64,000 nt of DNA from Crossiella equi (GTDB lineage Bacteria > Actinomycetota > Actinomycetes > Mycobacteriales > Pseudonocardiaceae): contig NZ_JAGIOO010000001.1 of the NCBI RefSeq assembly GCF_017876755.1, forward strand, positions 5,813,786 through 5,877,785. The letters are read 5' to 3'. A program made the translations under genes and the position numbers. A model generated the notes under the pieces. The model had not been told where the DNA came from, did no database searches, and was given only the letters and a program-made list of their open reading frames with translations. Position 1 is the stretch's first letter, and each line of letters starts with the position of its first letter. Shown piece after piece: positions 1,047-55,897 of this stretch.

Positions 1047-1640
1047 ATGCGTACGCAGCAGACAGTTCCGGCCCCCGGCTCGGCGACCGCCGCCGTCCCG
1101 GTACAGGAGGCCGAGTGGACGGCACCCTCGTGGGACGAGGTTGTGCGTGAGCATGCGGACCGCGTGTACCGGCTGGCCTACCGTCTGACCGGCAACGCCT
1201 ACGACGCCGACGACCTCACCCAGGAGACCTTCATCCGGGTGTTCCGGTCGCTGGCCTCCTACAAGCCCGGCACCTTCGAGGGCTGGTTGCACCGCATCAC
1301 GACGAACCTGTTCCTGGACATGGCGCGTCGCAAGACCAAGGTGCGCATGGAGGGCCTCCCCGAGGACACCGACCGGCTGGCCGACGACGGCCCCACGCCG
1401 GAGGAGATCTACGACGACCTGCACCTGAGCCCGGAGCTCCAGGCCGCTCTCGACGAGCTGCCCCCGGAATTTCGCGCCGCTGTTGTCTTGTGCGACGTTG
1501 AGGGGTTGTCCTACGAAGAGATCGGCGCGACGCTGGGCGTGAAGCTCGGCACCGTGCGCAGCCGCATCCACCGTGGGCGGCAGGCACTGAAGGCGGCGCT
1601 GGAGAAGCACCGCGAGAAGGCGATGGAGGCGAACGGATGA
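1047..1640 (+). CDS. sigE: ECF RNA polymerase sigma factor SigE
   Basis: This sigma-70 family protein of 197 residues has region 2 ([21 protein letters not shown], split here as [12 protein letters not shown] and [10 protein letters not shown]) and region 4 with the helix-turn-helix [19 protein letters not shown]. It directs transcription of envelope and heat stress genes and is held inactive by the anti-sigma factor encoded next. I chose ATG 1047 because a candidate ECF promoter at 971-998 and AGGAGG at 1027-1032 lie just upstream. The frame is open back to GTG 942, but that start would lie upstream of the promoter. The stop overlaps the rseA start (ATGA). Gene order with rseA, htrA and tatB supports the SigE assignment. 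Confidence 0.93.
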
Positions 1641-2248
1641 CGGACCTGCGCGGTTGGGTCAGGTCGGAGCAGCACCTCACCCCGGACGCGATCGTCGCGT
1701 TCGTCGACGGGGAGCTGTCTCCGGTCGCCCACGACCGGGCTTCGGCGCACGTGGCCAAGTGCCAGCTCTGCGCCGGTGAGGTCTCCGCTCAGCGCTCCGC
1801 CAAGTCGGCTCTGCGCACCTCGGCCCTGCCCGGGGTGTCCAGCCGCCTGATGGCTTCCCTGTGCGCCATCCCGCAGAACACCGAACTCCCCGCGATGCCC
1901 GACGAGCTCGCGGTCACCGACGACGGCCAGCTGGTCGCCGTGCAGCGCCCCAACGCCGCCAAGGCCGCGGCCGCCGCGCGCCCGGCCACCGGCTTCGGCT
2001 CCGGTCCCGTCCTGGGATCTGGTACCCCTTTCGGCGCGGGCCCGGCTTTTGGCCAGCGCCGGTTCGGCCTAGGCAACCGCCGGGTGCGTAACGGCGCGGG
2101 CATGGTCGTCTCCGGCTTCATGCTGGGCGCCCTGGCCCTCGCGGTCCCCGCCGCCTCCGCGCCGACGGCCGAGAACCAGCAGCCCACCAACGCCGGGATC
2201 GTGGACCAGATCCCCGCCGGTGTGCCCGCCAACATCAACGGCCGCTGA
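1637..2248 (+). CDS. rseA: Anti-sigma-E factor RseA (zinc-binding ZAS domain, membrane segment)
   Basis: The 203-residue protein has a zinc-associated anti-sigma motif, H38-x3-C42-x2-C45 (HVAKCQLC), near its N-terminus. A long Ala/Gly/Pro-rich linker follows, then a hydrophobic stretch at about 153-174 ([14 protein letters not shown]). It should sequester SigE until stress or phosphorylation-triggered proteolysis releases it, as described for mycobacterial RseA. The start overlaps the sigE stop by four bases, so translation is probably coupled. The hydrophobic segment suggests membrane anchoring with a short extracytoplasmic tail; this is inferred. Confidence 0.88.
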
Positions 2249-36436: not shown

Positions 36437-36559
36437 CCGTCGCCCAGGTTTCGGCTCGGTTACCGGGGGAGTCCGGCGGGTACCGGTCTCCCCTGCACCC
36501 GGGTGAAAAGCGTTGGGGGGTCTGCCGATCAGTGGGCCCGACGGGCTAGCCTCCCCTCT

Positions 36560-37645
36560 GTGCTCGTGGATTTGTTCCAGGACGCCGCCCAGAGCTGCCG
36601 CCAACGGAGCCCGCTCAACCACGCACTGCTGACCGCCGCCGCGCAGGATCTCGCGGCCGGTGGAGTCACGGCGTCGGTCATGGCAGGTTCGGAGCGCGAC
36701 CGCCGCGGCACCGTGCCCGGTCTGCGGTTCGCAGGCTCTCTGCACCGGTTGGTGCTCGAAGGCAAGGCCCCCGGCCTGGCCAAGCACTACCCGAGCGTGG
36801 GTGGCCACACCGACCTCGACAAGCTCTGGACCGACGTGCAGCCGGTGCTCGCCGAGCACGCCGACGAGCTGCGCGCGCTGGTGCGCTCGACCGTCGTGCA
36901 GACCAACGAGCCCGGCCGCACCGCCCCGCTCTTCGGCGGGCTGCTGGTGGCCGCCGACCGCGCCGCCAAGGCCGCCGGGCGGGCCACGCCGTACCCGGTG
37001 CGCCTGCTGGAGATCGGCGCCAGCGGCGGGCTGAACCTGCGCCCGCACCGCGTGGCCTACCAGCTCGCCGACGGCCGGGTGCTGGGCGATCCGCGCAGCC
37101 GCCTGCGCCTGGACCCCGAGTGGACCGGTCTGCCGCCGACCGACCTGGACGTGCCGCTGCGCGTGGTCGACCGCGCGGGCTGCGACCTCAACCCGGTGGA
37201 TGTGTCCACTTTGGATGGTCAGCGACAGCTGTCCTCCTTCATCTGGCCGGACCAGCTCGACCGCTGGCGCCGCCTGCAGCGCGCGATGCGCCTGGCGGTG
37301 GCCGACCCGGTGCGCATCGACCGCTCGCCCGGCCCGGACTGGTTGCGCGAGCACCTCGCCCAGCCGCGGCCCGGGGTGCTCACCGTCGTCTGGCACTCGG
37401 TGGTGTGGCAGTACGTCTCGCCCGCGCAGCGCGCGCAGGGCCGGGCCGTGCTCGCCGAGGCCGCCGAGCGCGCCACCGACGAGTGCCCGCTGGCGCTGCT
37501 GGTCTTCGAGCCCCGCGAACGCGTGGGCGGCCCATTCCGCTTCGACCTGTTGCTGCGGTTGTGGCCCGCCGGAATTTCGCTGCACCTGGGCAGTGGCTCC
37601 GGACATGGGATCCCGTTCACATGGGACGAACGGCGCTGGAGCTGA
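36560..37645 (+). CDS. DUF2332 family protein (copy 1)
   Basis: The 361-residue protein belongs to DUF2332 and has the Rossmann-like motif LLEIGASGGLNLR, then WPDQLDRWRRLQRAM and VVWHSVVWQYVS. The glycine-rich motif recalls SAM-dependent methyltransferases, but no activity is known. A second member of the family lies at 56406-57497. GTG 36560 lies seven bases after TAGCCT (36547-36552), suggesting a leaderless message; the open frame begins at 36503. Confidence 0.8.
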   Translation: MLVDLFQDAAQSCRQRSPLNHALLTAAAQDLAAGGVTASVMAGSERDRRGTVPGLRFAGSLHRLVLEGKAPGLAKHYPSVGGHTDLDKLWTDVQPVLAEHADELRALVRSTVVQTNEPGRTAPLFGGLLVAADRAAKAAGRATPYPVRLLEIGASGGLNLRPHRVAYQLADGRVLGDPRSRLRLDPEWTGLPPTDLDVPLRVVDRAGCDLNPVDVSTLDGQRQLSSFIWPDQLDRWRRLQRAMRLAVADPVRIDRSPGPDWLREHLAQPRPGVLTVVWHSVVWQYVSPAQRAQGRAVLAEAAERATDECPLALLVFEPRERVGGPFRFDLLLRLWPAGISLHLGSGSGHGIPFTWDERRWS

Positions 37646-37675: not shown

Positions 37676-37696
37676 TCAGTCGGTTTCGCATGCGTG

Positions 37697-37736
37697 CTAG
37701 GAGGTGATCGCCCATGACTCTCGGTGATCCTCCTAG
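37697..37736 (+). promoter_or_regulatory. Leader hairpin that hides a perfect ribosome site
   Basis: CTAGGAG (37697-37703) and GATC (37706-37709) pair with GATC (37726-37729) and CTCCTAG (37730-37736), leaving a 2-base bulge and a 16-base loop. The stem contains AGGAGGTGATC, which is complementary to the 3' end of 16S rRNA. The loop contains the ATG of an 11-codon ORF. The pairing would block ribosome entry unless it is opened, a typical switch layout. As DNA it could also be an operator. Confidence 0.6.
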
Positions 37737-37749
37737 TAGTCGTCTCTGA
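37714..37749 (+). CDS. Candidate leader peptide MTLGDPPSSRL upstream of the ABC-MgtC operon
   Basis: ATG 37714 follows the best ribosome site in the window (AGGAGGTGATC, 37699-37709) and encodes only 11 residues before TGA at 37747-37749. Codons 5-7 are Asp-Pro-Pro. Runs of acidic residues and proline in short leader ORFs are known to destabilise or stall ribosomes at low Mg2+ or low proline in enterobacterial mgtA and mgtC leaders. Here the downstream operon also ends in mgtC. The DNA of codons 5-8 forms the arm that masks the ribosome site. That this peptide is made and senses Mg2+ is inference. Confidence 0.5.
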   Translation: MTLGDPPSSRL

Positions 37750-37767
37750 CTTCTTCTTCTCTTTTTC

Positions 37768-37796
37768 CCGGTACGCGCTCGTCCGCGCGTAGCCGG
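37768..37796 (+). promoter_or_regulatory. Second leader hairpin before the ABC permease gene
   Basis: CCGGTACGCGC (37768-37778) pairs with GCGCGTAGCCGG (37785-37796), with one bulged C and a six-base loop. A pyrimidine run (TTCTTCTTCTCTTTTTCCC) comes just before it. It lies between the leader ORF and the permease start and may act as an attenuator or as the partner of the first hairpin. Confidence 0.5.
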
Positions 37797-37843
37797 TGAT
37801 TTCTGCTGCCCTTTTCCGGCATTCGCGCAGTTCGGACTTCGCC

Positions 37844-39565
37844 ATGTTCGCTGTCTTCAGCGTGCCCGCACGCCGCCGCACGCTCCTCGTCGACGCCGCC
37901 GTCGCCCTCGGGGTCGGCCTGCTGTTCTACCTGGTCATCCGGGTGGGTTCGGGCACGATGGCCCCGCTCGGCGGGGACGACTCCCTTGACCGGATCAGCA
38001 CCGATCCCTCGGTCCTGCCCTACTACGCCGCCCGCACGCTGCTGCGCATGTTCGCCGCGCTCGCGCTCTCCGTCGTGTTCACCGCGGTGGTCGGTACGCT
38101 CGCCGCGCGGTCCCGCCGGGCGGAAAAGATCATCCTGCCCGCACTCGACATTCTCCAGTCGGTGCCGATTCTCGGATTCCTCTCCGTCACGGTCACCGGA
38201 TTCATGGCGCTTTCGCCCGGTTCCACACTGGGCGTGGAATTCGCCTCGGTGTTCGCCATCTTCACCTCGCAGGCGTGGAACATGGCCTATGCCTGGTACC
38301 AGGCACTGCGGGTGCGGCCGCGCGAGCTCGACGAGGCGGCCACCACGCTCGGCCTCACCCGGTGGCAGCGGTTCTGGCGGCTGGACGCGCCCAGCACCAC
38401 GATCCCGCTGCTGTGGAACGGGATGATGAGCTTCGGTGGCGGCTGGTTCTTCGTGGTCGCCGCCGAGGCGATCAGCGTGGGCAACCGGACGTACGCGTTG
38501 CCCGGCATCGGCAGCTACGTGGCCGCCGCGACCGCGCGCGCCGAAGCTGACCGCCTGCTGCTCGCGGTGGGCACGATGGTGCTGCTGGTGCTCGTGGTGA
38601 ACGTGCTGTTCTGGCGCCCGCTGACCGCGTGGGCGGAGCGGTTCCGCGTGGAGGAGACCGAGGCGGGCGCGGCCCCGCGCAGCCTGGTGCTCGACCTGCT
38701 GCGCCGGGCCAGCCTGCCCCGGCGGCTGGGCGCGGCGCTCGGCCCGGTGGCCGAGGGGCTGGACCGGGCGGCGCGGGTGTTCGGGCGGCCCGGCACCCGG
38801 TGGGCCCCGCCCCGGGCGCGGCGGCGGGCCGGTGACCTGGCGCTGCTGGTGGCCGTGCTGGGCCTGCTGGCCTGGGGCTCGGTGTCCGCGGTGGACTACC
38901 TGGCGGGCACGGTGACCTGGGCGGAGCTCGGGCACGTGGCCTGGCTCGGGCTGGTCACGTTCGCGCGGGTGGTGCCGGTGGTCGTGGTGGCCTCGCTGGT
39001 GTGGGTGCCGCTGGGCGTGTGGATCGGGCTGCACCCCAAGGTCTCCCGCCTGGCCCAGCCGGTGGTGCAGGTGTTCGCCAGCTTCCCGGCGACCTTCCTG
39101 TTCCCGCTGTGCACCGCCTTGTTGATCAGCACCCAGGTGTCCCTGGACTGGGGCGGTGTGCTGCTGATGAGCCTCGGCGCGCAGTGGTACGTGCTGTTCA
39201 ACGTGATCGCCGGGGCCAGCGCGATCCCGGCCGACCTGCGTGAGGCCGCCGCCGACCTCGGGGTGCGCCGGTGGCTGTGGTGGCGGCGGCTGGTGCTGCC
39301 CGCGGTGTTCCCGGCCTGGGTGACCGGTGCGCTGACCGCCGCCGGGGGCGCGTGGAACGCCTCGATCGTCTCCGAGGTGGTCACCTACGGGTCCGACCGG
39401 CTGGAGGCCACCGGGCTCGGCGCGTACATCTCGACCGCGACCGCCGCCTCGGACTTCCCGCACCTCCTCGTCGGGGTGGCGGTGATGAGCGCCTACGTGA
39501 CCGCCCTCAACAGCCTCTGCTGGCGCCCCCTGCACGCCTTCGCGCAGCGCCGCTTCAGCCTCTGA
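37844..39565 (+). CDS. Fused double-domain ABC permease (NitT/TauT-like)
   Basis: The 573-residue membrane protein contains two permease halves, each with an ATPase-docking loop: ELDEAATTLGLTRWQRFWRL in the first half and DLREAAADLGVRRWLWWRRL in the second. It thus provides both membrane subunits of a nitrate/sulfonate/taurine-type importer in one chain. No substrate-binding protein gene is nearby, so the substrate is not known. The open frame starts at GTG 37796, inside the hairpin; ATG 37844 is preferred. Neither start has a good ribosome site, which makes control by the leader likely. Confidence 0.86.
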   Translation: MFAVFSVPARRRTLLVDAAVALGVGLLFYLVIRVGSGTMAPLGGDDSLDRISTDPSVLPYYAARTLLRMFAALALSVVFTAVVGTLAARSRRAEKIILPALDILQSVPILGFLSVTVTGFMALSPGSTLGVEFASVFAIFTSQAWNMAYAWYQALRVRPRELDEAATTLGLTRWQRFWRLDAPSTTIPLLWNGMMSFGGGWFFVVAAEAISVGNRTYALPGIGSYVAAATARAEADRLLLAVGTMVLLVLVVNVLFWRPLTAWAERFRVEETEAGAAPRSLVLDLLRRASLPRRLGAALGPVAEGLDRAARVFGRPGTRWAPPRARRRAGDLALLVAVLGLLAWGSVSAVDYLAGTVTWAELGHVAWLGLVTFARVVPVVVVASLVWVPLGVWIGLHPKVSRLAQPVVQVFASFPATFLFPLCTALLISTQVSLDWGGVLLMSLGAQWYVLFNVIAGASAIPADLREAAADLGVRRWLWWRRLVLPAVFPAWVTGALTAAGGAWNASIVSEVVTYGSDRLEATGLGAYISTATAASDFPHLLVGVAVMSAYVTALNSLCWRPLHAFAQRRFSL

Positions 39566-39583
39566 CCGTTCAGGAGAACTCCC

Positions 39584-40849
39584 ATGACCATCGTGGCACT
39601 CGAGCACGTCCACAAGGACTTCGGCGGGCACCCGGTGCTGGCCGACGTCAGCCTCCAGCTGCGCGCGGGTGAGGTCGTCGCCCTGCTCGGCAAGTCCGGT
39701 TCCGGCAAGTCGACGCTGCTGCGCACGATCGCCGGGCTGGTGGAACCCACCTCGGGGCGCGTCACCTACCGGGGTGAGACGCTGCGCGGACCGAACCCGG
39801 GCACCGCGATGGTGTTCCAGAGCTTCGCGCTGCTGCCCTGGCTGACCGTGCGGGACAACGTCGAGCTGGGCCTGCGGGCCCGGGGCGTGCGGCGGGCCGA
39901 GCGCAGGCGCCGGGCCGAGGCGGTGATCGACCTCATCGGTCTGGACGGCTTCGCCGGGGCCTACCCGAAGGAGCTCTCCGGCGGTATGCGCCAGCGGGTC
40001 GGCTTCGCCCGCGCGCTGGTGCTGGAACCGGACGCGCTGCTGATGGACGAGCCGTTCTCCGCGCTGGACGTGCTGACCGCGGAGAACCTGCGCACCGAGC
40101 TGATGGCGCTGTGGGGCAACGCGCGCTTCCCGACGCGGACCATCTGCGTGGTCACGCACAACATCGAGGAGGCCGTGCTGCTGGCCGACCGGGTGCTGGT
40201 GCTCGGCGCGAACCCGGGGCGGATCACCGAGGAGATCACGGTGCCGCTGACACGGCCGAGGGACCGCCGGGGCGCCGGGTTCCAGGCCGTGGTGGACCGG
40301 ATCTACCGCGCGCTCACCGGGTCCGCGCTCGACCGCGAGCTGCCCGATCCGCACACCCCGGTGCGGCGGCCGCTGCCGGTGGCCAGTGTCGGCGGGCTGG
40401 CCGGTCTGGTCGAGCTGGTCGACGGCAGCGGTGGCCGGGCCGAGCTGCCGGAGCTGGCGGCCGAGCTGGCGTTCGAGGTGGACGACCTGATGCCGCTGGT
40501 GGACGCGGCCCGGCTGCTCGGGCTGGTCGAGGTGGCGGGCGCGGGGGTGCACCTGACCGCCGAGGGCCAGGCCTGGGCGGGCGCGGACATCCCGAGGAGC
40601 AAGGAGCGGTTCGCCGCGCTCGCCGAGGCGAACGCCCCGCTGGTCGGCATGATCACGCACGCGCTGCGCACCAGCCGCACGGGCCGGTTGCGCCAGTCCT
40701 TCTTCCTGGACCTGCTCCAGCGCGGTTTCACCCAGCCCGAGGCGCTGCGGCAGCTCGCCGTGGCCGTGGACTGGGGCCGGTACGGCGAGCTGTTCGACTT
40801 CGACGCGGTGGCGCACGAGCTGGTGCTGGAGAACGGAGCCCGGTCATGA
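39584..40849 (+). CDS. ABC transporter ATPase with C-terminal AAA-associated domain
   Basis: The 421-residue protein has an ATPase domain with Walker A GKSGSGKST, signature LSGGMRQR, Walker B LLMDEPFSALD and switch THNIEEA. A C-terminal winged-helix-like extension (about 265-421, LAGLVELVDGSGGRAELPEL) matches the AAA-associated C-terminal domain found in NitT/TauT-like ATPases without a usual binding protein. It energises the fused permease 18 bases upstream. Its stop overlaps the mgtC start (ATGA), which couples the two. Confidence 0.88.
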   Translation: MTIVALEHVHKDFGGHPVLADVSLQLRAGEVVALLGKSGSGKSTLLRTIAGLVEPTSGRVTYRGETLRGPNPGTAMVFQSFALLPWLTVRDNVELGLRARGVRRAERRRRAEAVIDLIGLDGFAGAYPKELSGGMRQRVGFARALVLEPDALLMDEPFSALDVLTAENLRTELMALWGNARFPTRTICVVTHNIEEAVLLADRVLVLGANPGRITEEITVPLTRPRDRRGAGFQAVVDRIYRALTGSALDRELPDPHTPVRRPLPVASVGGLAGLVELVDGSGGRAELPELAAELAFEVDDLMPLVDAARLLGLVEVAGAGVHLTAEGQAWAGADIPRSKERFAALAEANAPLVGMITHALRTSRTGRLRQSFFLDLLQRGFTQPEALRQLAVAVDWGRYGELFDFDAVAHELVLENGARS

Positions 40850-41550
40850 CCCTGCTGTGGTGGGAGGTGGGCGCCCGGCTGGGCGCGGCCCTGGTCCTGG
40901 GCGCGGCGATCGGCCTGGAGCGCCAGTGGCGCGCCCGCCTGGCTGGCCTGCGCACCAACGCCCTGGTCGCCACGGGCGCCTGCCTGTTCGTACTGCTGAG
41001 CCAGCTGACCCCGGGCGAGGGCAGTCCGACCCGCATCGCGGCCCAGGTCGTCTCGGGCATCGGTTTCCTGGGCGCGGGCGTGATCATCCGCGACGGCGCC
41101 TCGCTGCGGGGCATCAACACGGCGGCCACGATCTGGGGCGCGGCGGGGGTGGGCTGCCTGGCGGGCGCGGGCCTGTACCCGCACGCCGCGGCGGGCGCCG
41201 CCACGATCGTCCTGGCCAACATCGTCCTGCGGGCCCTGGCCCGCAAGGTCGACCGGACCCAACCGGACCCGGACCGCCACTACCGCTACGACTTCAAGGC
41301 GGTCTGCCGCGACACCGAGGAACCCCACATCCGGGCCCTGGTCGTCCAGGCGGTCACCGCGGCGGGCTTCACCCTCCATGGCCTGGAGAGCGAGGACCTG
41401 ACCACCCCGGGCCGGACCGAGGTCACCGCCCGCCTGGCCGCCACGGGCAAGCAGGGCGGCGACCTGGAACACGCGGTGAGCCGCCTGAGCCTGGAGCCGG
41501 GGGTGACCGCGGTGAGCTGGCGGGTGGCCAACCCGGACCCGGACGTCTGA
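40846..41550 (+). CDS. mgtC: MgtC/SapB family membrane protein
   Basis: The 234-residue protein has the MgtC N-terminal membrane domain (LGAAIGLERQWRARLAGLRTNALVA, shortened here to AIGLERQWRARLAGLRTN; VVSGIGFLGAGVIIRDG; GINTAATIWGAAGVG) and a soluble ACT-like C-terminal domain (from about 145). MgtC proteins help bacteria grow in low Mg2+ and inside phagocytes, probably by controlling ATP synthase or phosphate uptake. Here the gene is coupled to an ABC importer (ATGA overlap), an unusual partnership. The convergent PKS gene ends only eight bases later. Confidence 0.88.
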   Translation: MTLLWWEVGARLGAALVLGAAIGLERQWRARLAGLRTNALVATGACLFVLLSQLTPGEGSPTRIAAQVVSGIGFLGAGVIIRDGASLRGINTAATIWGAAGVGCLAGAGLYPHAAAGAATIVLANIVLRALARKVDRTQPDPDRHYRYDFKAVCRDTEEPHIRALVVQAVTAAGFTLHGLESEDLTTPGRTEVTARLAATGKQGGDLEHAVSRLSLEPGVTAVSWRVANPDPDV

Positions 41551-41558
41551 TCCCCCGG

Positions 41559-48046
<6,488 letters not shown>

Positions 48047-48050
<4 letters not shown>

Positions 48051-54507: not shown

Positions 54508-55590
54508 TCACAGCCACTGGTTGCGGCGGAAGATGCGGTACAGCACCAGGCAGGCGAGGAGGATGACGCCCAGCACCACGGGGTAGGCGAAGGTCATCTT
54601 CAGCTCGGGCATGTTCTCGAAGTTCATGCCGTAGATCCCGGCGATCATCGTGGGCACCGAGATGATCGCGACCCAGGCGCTGATCTTGCGCATGTCGTTG
54701 TTCTGGCGCATGGTGATCTTGGCCAGCACCGCGTCGATCAGGGTCGTGAGCATCTCGTCGAAGGTGACGATGCGGTCGTGCACGGTGGTGAGGTGGTCGT
54801 CGACGTCGCGGAAGTAGGACCGCACCTCGTCGGGCACCAGCGGGATGTAGCCCTCGGCCAGGCGGCGCAGCGGCGTGGCCAGCGGGCCCACCGCCCGGCG
54901 CAGCTCCATGACCTCGCGCTTCATCAGGTAGATCTGCTCCGGGTCGACCGCGCTGCGCGGGTCGAAGACCTCGACCTCCAGCGTGTCGATGTCGTCCTCG
55001 ACCGCGCTGGTGACCTCCAGGTAGTGGTCGACCACGTGGTCGGCGATGGCGTGCAGCACGGCGGCGGGCCCGAGCTGGAGCTTCTCCACGTCCTGCTCCA
55101 GCTCGCTGCGCAGCCCGGCCAGGGCCGCGTGCTTGCCGTGCCGCACCGTGATCACGAACTCCCGGCCGACGAAGACCATGATCTCGCCGGTCTCCACGAT
55201 CTCGTTCGCCGTGGTGGGCGACTCGTGCGCGACGTAGCGGACCGTCTTGAGCACCATGAACAGCGAGTCGTCGTAGCGCTCCAGCTTCGGGCGCTGGTGC
55301 GCGTGCACCGCGTCCTCCACGGCCAGCTCGTGCAGCCCGAAGGTCTCCGCGATGCTCTGGATCTGCTCCTCGTCCGGCTCGTGCAGGCCGATCCAGACGA
55401 ACCCGGTGCCCCGCTTGCGGACCTCCTCGACCGCCCCGGCGTGTGTCCAGCGGCCGGGCAGCCGCTTGCCCTCGACGTAGACGCCGCAGTCGACCACGTA
55501 GGCGGAGAGCGGCACCGGGATCTGCTGGGGCATGGCAGCTCCGTTACGGGCGGCGCGGCCACGCAGGCCGAGCGTGGGCAGAACGGACAT
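54508..55590 (-). CDS. corA: CorA-family Mg2+/Co2+ channel
   Basis: The 360-residue protein has a long soluble N-terminal domain and two C-terminal helices, with the channel signature YGMNF after the first helix (AWVAIISVPTMIAGIYGMN) and the acidic loop ENMPEL. It forms pentameric channels for Mg2+ entry. In mycobacteria corA follows sugC directly; here about 33 kb of other genes lie between. The ATG at 55590 and an internal ATG 19 codons later are both possible starts. Confidence 0.93.
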   Translation of the reverse strand: MSVLPTLGLRGRAARNGAAMPQQIPVPLSAYVVDCGVYVEGKRLPGRWTHAGAVEEVRKRGTGFVWIGLHEPDEEQIQSIAETFGLHELAVEDAVHAHQRPKLERYDDSLFMVLKTVRYVAHESPTTANEIVETGEIMVFVGREFVITVRHGKHAALAGLRSELEQDVEKLQLGPAAVLHAIADHVVDHYLEVTSAVEDDIDTLEVEVFDPRSAVDPEQIYLMKREVMELRRAVGPLATPLRRLAEGYIPLVPDEVRSYFRDVDDHLTTVHDRIVTFDEMLTTLIDAVLAKITMRQNNDMRKISAWVAIISVPTMIAGIYGMNFENMPELKMTFAYPVVLGVILLACLVLYRIFRRNQWL

Positions 55591-55897
55591 GGGGGGCTCC
55601 AGTCGGACAACGCGTCACGGGAACGGGTGAACTGCCGGAACCTGCGTGAGGGCCCGGCGCCAGGACGCGTCCAGACCGGTTGATCGGGTGCCTACCTCGT
55701 TGTCGGCGACCCACCGGAGAGGACACGGGCGGTACTGGGAGGGTTGCTGTCCGTACTCACCGCGTCTCACCTCCTCGGGGTCGTGGCCGGAACGGTGGAT
55801 TCGCTCACAGACCAGTTGTCGAGACTACCCGTACCGGGGCAAGACTGTCCTCTCCGGTCGTGGTCGACCGGAGAGGACCTCGATCTCGGGAGGCAGA
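55591..55897 (+). promoter_or_regulatory. 307-base gap between corA and the MaoC gene
   Basis: This divergent gap holds no ORF I trust. A perfect palindrome lies at 55847-55878, and ACCGGAGAGGAC occurs at 55713-55724 and again at 55867-55878. GGGAACGGG at 55619-55627 and GGAAC at 55637-55641 could be ECF-type -35 elements, without a clear -10. Confidence 0.5.
55847..55878 (+). promoter_or_regulatory. Perfect 14-bp inverted repeat before the MaoC gene
   Basis: GTCCTCTCCGGTCG (55847-55860) and CGACCGGAGAGGAC (55865-55878) flank TGGT. The stem ends eight bases before the ribosome site (CGGGAGG, 55887-55893). It may be a regulator site or a leader hairpin. Confidence 0.6.

Follow-up and report, generated by a model that had tools for sequence, protein, structure and literature searches.

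A short leader ORF ahead of a permease-ATPase-mgtC operon, probably one of the many leaders, here free of an M-box, that gate magnesium transport across actinobacteria

Several systems are known in which a short ORF stands ahead of a magnesium gene (the papers cited here and below are known to us from excerpts). In M. tuberculosis the M-box of pe20 controls uORF2/Rv1805A via start masking and Rho; the excerpt describes the Rv1805A peptide as mycobacteria-specific, reports an M-box-free homologue, Rv0115A, and suggests the role of a trans-acting protein (PMC12810186). Ribosome-protected uORFs lie before mgtC and mgtE of M. abscessus, and the uORF of mgtE, which has an M-box, is called a vcgB homologue (PMC4974804, excerpt). 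In enterobacteria, mgtL and corL are the leaders of mgtA and corA (PMC11552253, excerpt), while mgtQ, of 8 residues, is situated between mgtC and mgtB of Salmonella (PMC8092293, excerpt). The excerpt of PMC11109978 lists other bacterial uORF candidates and does not mention the family of leader ORFs which is our subject; nor do the titles and abstract openings listed in searches of the open-access literature describe this family outside mycobacteria and Rhodococcus.

We analysed a stretch of 64 kb of DNA, hereafter the window, for which a preliminary description had proposed a new actinobacterial leader-peptide switch. What stands of this proposal is a conserved leader ORF before Mg2+-transport operons; the novelty is reduced by the fact that a mycobacterial, M-box-linked version is already published (PMC12810186). 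From its sequence, it is very probable that the window leader belongs to the family, as an M-box-free leader of a Mg2+ operon, and that it has a regulatory role. The leader and the operon behind it comprise the following elements:

37699-37709, plus strand: ribosome site AGGAGGTGATC, very strong, read from the sequence
37714-37749, plus strand: micro-ORF ATGACTCTCGGTGATCCTCCTAGTAGTCGTCTCTGA, encoding MTLGDPPSSRL (11 codons), known from the sequence, from relatives and from the strict-rule scan
37735-37740, plus strand: tandem rare AGT serine codons (codons 8-9), the mark of the leader-ORF family
37750-37769, plus strand: all-pyrimidine tract of 20 nt directly after the stop codon, a candidate Rho-loading site
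37844-39565, plus strand: ABC permease with two BPD_transp_1 stretches (alternative start GTG at 37796)
39584-40849, plus strand: ABC ATPase with a C-terminal AAA_assoc_C domain
40846-41550, plus strand: MgtC family protein

The ribosome site and the 11-codon ORF were already part of the preliminary description, and both are present. It had also denied the permease a good ribosome site; there is indeed only a weak GGA upstream of the ATG at 37844, but the GTG at 37796 offers an alternative start. The 11-mer of the ribosome site is not unique, since the window scan found a second copy at 43573 on the minus strand, within the long ORF 41559-48050. This ORF of 2163 residues, also on the minus strand, resembles a modular polyketide synthase and converges on the operon. 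Directly upstream of the leader lies a DUF2332 gene (36503-37645), a relative of which is found in the loci L032, L033 and L047 as well. Residues 5-7 of the micro-ORF are DPP, so that acidic and proline residues come early in it. The pyrimidine tract is the longest pyrimidine run of the window on either strand, and similar tracts follow the ORF in L047 and L096. A scan for promoter and terminator consensus gave no match and no intrinsic terminator-like site; a phage search with the leader gave no match either. The operon begins with a permease in which two domains are fused, followed by the ATPase with AAA_assoc_C and by MgtC, and no substrate-binding protein was seen within it. As the permease and the AAA_assoc_C ATPase (37844-40849) are often found beside mgtA and mgtC in relatives, they are a candidate Mg2+-linked ABC transporter.

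By a permease search we took the best 80 of 290 related loci, which come from many actinobacterial genera. A strict rule (GGAGGT, a start codon, an ORF of 8-40 codons and an AGT serine codon at codons 4-10) was applied to them. Upstream of the permease (309 kb) there are 46 matches, in 46 of these best 80 of 290 loci, versus 3 matches in 1.19 Mb of controls, namely 2 on reverse strands (748 kb) and 1 forward from the permease on (439 kb); the remaining 34 of the 80 loci have no match. When the AGT condition is dropped, the matches number 57 upstream, 26 on reverse strands and 11 in the forward control, which means that AGT is present in 46 of the 57 upstream ORFs versus 3 of the 37 control ORFs. 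The micro-ORF hence recurs next to related operons, as the preliminary description had suggested checking. It precedes the first gene of the operon whichever this gene is: mgtA, mgtC (in Nocardia) or the permease. Twenty-four mgtA-first loci are listed, and TIGR01524 scored above its cut-off in all three of those tested; 38 of these 80 best loci out of 290 encode MgtC in the same orientation. GGAGG is unchanged throughout the leader alignment (A4), an invariance obtained partly by construction because GGAGG was the search anchor. Since a family of such leaders stands before Mg-transport genes in many actinobacteria, the window leader is probably a control switch.

The M-box (RF00380) has no match above the gathering score in the 64-kb window and none, under stricter filters, in the window's own genome of 9.44 Mb. 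Rfam was run on 58 loci (57 of the 80, and L118), and 12 of the 58 have an M-box ahead of the operon. A thirteenth, in L040 (7185-7620), is accompanied by a micro-ORF (MSPSHSRD...) and lies downstream of the ATPase gene, ahead of another gene. Near the Streptomyces operon of L096 there is a cobalamin riboswitch (1638-1858, minus strand, 88.7 bits). A search of 296 actinobacterial genomes located M-boxes in 29 places in 16 genomes; these 29 and 12 others make up 41 M-box records, L091 being left out. For each record the short ORF with GGAGG that follows the aptamer most closely was chosen, serine not being a criterion. Such an ORF exists in 38 of the 41 records, about 42-142 nt downstream of the M-box, and 34 of these 38 ORFs have AGT in codons 4-10 (it is absent in L075, L129, L137 and L138). 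The three exceptions are L055 and, with a start codon that is not canonical, L141 and L146. The latter two are mycobacterial M-box leaders before PE-like genes; as the start of their micro-ORF is lost or altered (ATT in L146), the ORF may be decaying there. In L216 the leader ORF, with an M-box, precedes MgtE, and in L057, which belongs to the M-box-free set, the M-box search found none.

A sequence-only profile, built from 42 leaders, was run on 246 genomes. Besides the window's own, 29 loci were fetched, 19 of them with short ORFs; the 10 others, with ORFs of 62 codons or more, were counted as misses, and weak matches to the profile are frequent in these genomes. Ten of the 19 are M-box loci already known from the M-box search. 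The other nine stand before an MgtA-type ATPase (L207, L209), CorA (L212, L214), DUF1003 (L210, L215, L223) or a small protein (L200, L205), and in none of these nine loci does an M-box reach the gathering score. The ATPase genes of L207 and L209 run off the end of the locus, and their best model, a magnesium-translocating P-type ATPase, remains below full-length cut-offs. L200 and L205 keep, without an M-box, the 35-codon ORF and the small hydrophobic protein of the M-box loci L197 and L198, which carry the same genus label. The ORF is thus able to occur in one and the same setting even where the riboswitch is missing. The presence of a micro-ORF of the same kind before DUF1003 genes in three loci suggests a Mg2+ role for DUF1003 proteins.

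In the whole window, on either strand, the strict rule has one other match, which opens a second leader:

55775-55768, minus strand: ribosome site AGGAGGTG of the second leader
55692-55760, minus strand: second leader ORF MSTDSNPPSTARVLSGGSPTTR
54508-55590, minus strand: CorA-like Mg2+ transporter behind this leader

The distance to the CorA-family gene is about 100 nt. When the profile was run on the window's own genome, the permease leader and the corA leader ranked first and second (24.3 and 21.0 bits), both having belonged to the training set of that profile. Fifteen loci were fetched in this search, and five were examined beyond the permease leader: the corA leader and L184-L187, whose ORFs have at least 60 codons and beside which no Mg2+ gene was recognised by eye. 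A fixed pattern tried on the same genome was dropped: its 32 matches (10 in the control) looked mostly intragenic, and because of its gap limits it missed both window leaders.

We then consider the folding of the window leader. The 221-nt leader has a predicted fold of -82.7 kcal/mol (z -2.51), and 3 of 200 shuffles are equally good. The predicted hairpins are:

37696-37737, plus strand: masking hairpin of 15 predicted pairs with the start codon in its loop, from fold prediction and from the alignment of relatives
37768-37796, plus strand: second hairpin, CCGG...CCGG, from the predicted fold
37792-37820, plus strand: alternative hairpin, GCCGG/CCGGC, which would compete with the second one, from the predicted fold of relatives

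In the masking hairpin, 37696-37712 is predicted to pair with 37723-37737, and codons 6-7 (CCT CCT) form the strand which covers GGAGG. The masked ribosome site of the preliminary description is thereby upheld as a prediction, except that the arm formed by the ORF itself consists of codons 4-8 and not 5-8; the second strong hairpin was recovered too. The alternative hairpin occurs in the predicted folds of four Crossiella-group relatives (L032, L033, L004, L005). When seven relatives, six of them distinct, are aligned on the masking hairpin, 96.6% of the cells are paired across the six distinct ones, and this falls to 27-62% if the partner strand is slid; 35 of 500 shuffles match the hairpin on cells paired and covariation score. 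Hence the predicted masking stem recurs in the nearest relatives, where the preliminary description had advised looking for it. Covariation is thin: a single two-sided pair change, A-U to G-C, is seen in L011 and L047 (two other genera), and two-sided changes are not above chance in this alignment (309 of 500 shuffles as good, and 500 of 500 for further pair types). Between the tail of the window ORF and the sequence downstream the best helix has only 4 pairs, and no tail pairing of the mgtQ type, with a strand reaching the main ribosome site, was found.

Pairing was also assessed across leader types by a permutation test, in which the spacer of each leader is joined to its own coding start or to those of the others and the stabilities of the hairpins are compared. 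In 18 M-box-free leaders the start-codon hairpin beats the permutation (17 of 1000 as good), while in 16 M-box leaders it is unsupported (211 of 1000 as good). This contrast fits the published mycobacterial model, where the strand that masks the start is located upstream and linked to the aptamer (PMC12810186). Over all 34 non-redundant leaders the result is borderline: 8 of 300 by energy, 67 of 1000 by contiguous stem and 111 of 300 with the ribosome site included. The 17 mgtA-first leaders each have a helix of 7-14 pairs between the tail and a downstream strand after the stop (5 of 1000 permutations as good) as well as a pairing of the start region with the tail (6 of 1000); the control pairing of the tail with the ribosome site gives no signal (975 of 1000). 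For a pairing of the downstream strand with the ribosome site of mgtA the two measures disagree: it is significant by duplex energy (0 of 300) and not by contiguous helix (195 of 1000). In the 18 permease-first leaders the tail/downstream helix is unsupported (216 of 1000) and the start/tail pairing marginal (51 of 1000, or 5 of 300 with another energy model), and for the four mgtC-first leaders all five pairings are unremarkable (33 to 300 of 300). Single values near 0.01 are weak here, as fifteen duplex tests were made in one series and ten in another. When 23 mgtA-first leaders were aligned blind, RNAalifold returned 5 weak pairs, none of them with a two-sided change; the outcome was poor because the tails do not align, and the permutation tests were used in its place.

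The strength of the predicted masking hairpin, and the favouring of start-codon structure in M-box-free leaders, would be explained if the RNA alone were the switch, the hairpin itself sensing Mg2+ or temperature and the peptide and its codons being irrelevant. The preference for AGT goes in the same direction, for it is a nucleotide-level signal: behind M-boxes, in ORFs picked without a serine rule, AGT makes up 67 of the 95 serine codons within codons 1-8, versus 2.7% of 2630 in the permease genes. However, M-box leaders retain the ORF without a supported local hairpin, and codons 2-9 in two mycobacterial groups have 19 silent versus 6 replacing differences (12+7 versus 3+3; these counts, like those below, are pairwise and so not independent). 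We consequently regard a switch made of RNA only as unlikely; judging from these sequences, the peptide and the RNA levels both seem constrained.

A second possibility is a small protein acting in trans, for example a transporter part or a regulator. This was put forward in the excerpt of PMC12810186 for Rv1805A, with its M-box-free homologue, and the naming of the mycobacterial uORF before mgtE as a vcgB homologue (PMC4974804, excerpt) also speaks for it. Against it, the length of the ORF varies from 11 to 51 codons across the family, and in three groups, from codon 10 to the end, replacing differences occur at a rate that equals or exceeds that of silent ones (6+12 silent versus 52+33 replacing in the same two mycobacterial groups). 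We find such a protein quite unlikely. Since codons 2-9 are constrained in the two mycobacterial groups and codons 10 to the end are not, an effect of the nascent chain is favoured; this comparison of sequences points to an event occurring once the ribosome has read about 6-9 codons, rather than to a free-standing protein. In the Streptomyces-like group no amino-acid constraint was found at the N-terminus (3 silent versus 10 replacing). Most likely, the peptide acts in cis, inside the ribosome.

Tandem AGU codons might instead read charged tRNA-Ser, so that the leader would be an attenuator responding to serine limitation. Its strong preference for AGT, with runs of up to three such codons (L046, L060), is what one would expect of it, but no serine gene is among the targets named so far, which are Mg2+ transporters, AGT occurs just once in some leaders, and L075 has no serine codon among its first 14 codons, that is before codon 15; we rate this as very unlikely. 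That a strong ribosome site and a short ORF came together by chance, as the second copy of the 11-mer inside a long ORF of the window and the frequency of weak profile matches might suggest, is hardly credible given that the leader recurs in other genera and before Mg2+ genes.

The preliminary description had also pointed to proline as a likely sensing element. Among the 34 non-redundant leaders, AGT itself having been part of their selection, 28 have an acidic residue in the short N-terminal stretch ahead of AGT, while Pro-Pro is present in 6 and absent in 28. Proline codons stand ahead of AGT in the corA leader of the window (AAC CCT CCC AGT) and in the Streptomyces loci L095 and L096 (GAA CCT CCC AGT). 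We rejected proline sensing as a general principle on account of these 6 leaders in 34, and the earlier emphasis on it is not supported as worded: as the CCT CCT codons of the window are the very strand predicted to cover GGAGG, pairing by itself can explain its prolines. An additional stalling role of proline in the window leader may nonetheless exist.

On balance, and on the sequences compared here, we favour the reading in which the window leader is an M-box-free member of a widespread leader-ORF family gating actinobacterial Mg2+-transport operons, with a switch of the kind proposed here. We infer its Mg2+ dependence solely from the nature of the target genes and from the partnership with the M-box. 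The detailed switching scheme is tentative. With ample Mg2+, the hairpin 37696-37737 would shut the micro-ORF, or ribosomes would pass through it fast; the pyrimidine tract behind the stop, being bare, would then let Rho load, and transcription would end ahead of the permease. With low Mg2+, the hairpin would open more readily, and the initiating ribosome would be slow or would drop off at the acidic/AGU stretch. Such a ribosome on the micro-ORF would hold the hairpin open and alter the folding further downstream, and expression of the permease-ATPase-mgtC operon would follow. In mgtA-first relatives there are hints of a fuller switch in three parts, where the ORF tail would pair with a downstream strand that could itself pair with the mgtA ribosome site. 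A broader idea is doubtful, although it can be entertained: that the micro-ORF and not the M-box is the common, probably older Mg2+ sensor, the ribosome sensing Mg2+ as it decodes the acidic stretch and the rare AGU codons, and that the M-box or the self-masking hairpin is an exchangeable gate on the start.

The same leader cassette is found before mgtA, corA, mgtC, DUF1003, MgtE and ABC operons, with and without a riboswitch, which suggests one shared rule of Mg2+ control in actinobacteria. In addition, the leader would tie an ABC transporter, made of the permease and the AAA_assoc_C ATPase, to Mg2+. A mycobacterial peptide described as genus-specific now has relatives of the same kind in many actinobacteria, and its function becomes directly testable there.

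Finally, we compare the window leader with the known systems, as far as the excerpts of the papers cited above describe them. Judged by sequence, the leader-ORF family overlaps uORF2/Rv1805A. Like the latter, the window leader has a very strong ribosome site (GGAGGTG), a short ORF and a Mg2+-linked operon with mgtC, and its start region is masked by an anti-start strand, in the window by prediction only. G4, D5 and P7 of the window match MSPGDSP of the Rv1805A type, whose N-terminus is conserved, Pro7 being shared; AGT comes two codons later, and this alignment is ambiguous. The M-box RF00380 also controls Mg2+ operons and often precedes the micro-ORF, but unlike the leader of uORF2/Rv1805A, neither that of the window nor its genome has a match to it. 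The masking strand lies inside the window ORF and not upstream, the ORF has 11 codons with AGT at codons 8-9 instead of 6, the host is Crossiella-like and the target is an ABC-mgtC operon. With mgtL and corL the window leader has in common a short ORF before a Mg2+ transporter, acidic and proline residues, and a start region held in a stem; Rho, which is involved in mgtL and corL, is suspected here. Proline, however, is not general in the leader-ORF family, and no sequence relation to mgtL or corL was shown. The direction of control differs among the known systems, and for the window leader it may be either: in the published model, translation of the mycobacterial uORF goes with expression, whereas translation of mgtL and corL opposes it. 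Finally mgtQ is, like the window micro-ORF, a very short ORF with acidic residues; it is intergenic and has 8 residues, and the window leader is without a supported tail/downstream helix. The alternative stems of mgtQ mask or free the ribosome site of the next gene, and the mgtA-first relatives of the window leader may do the same.
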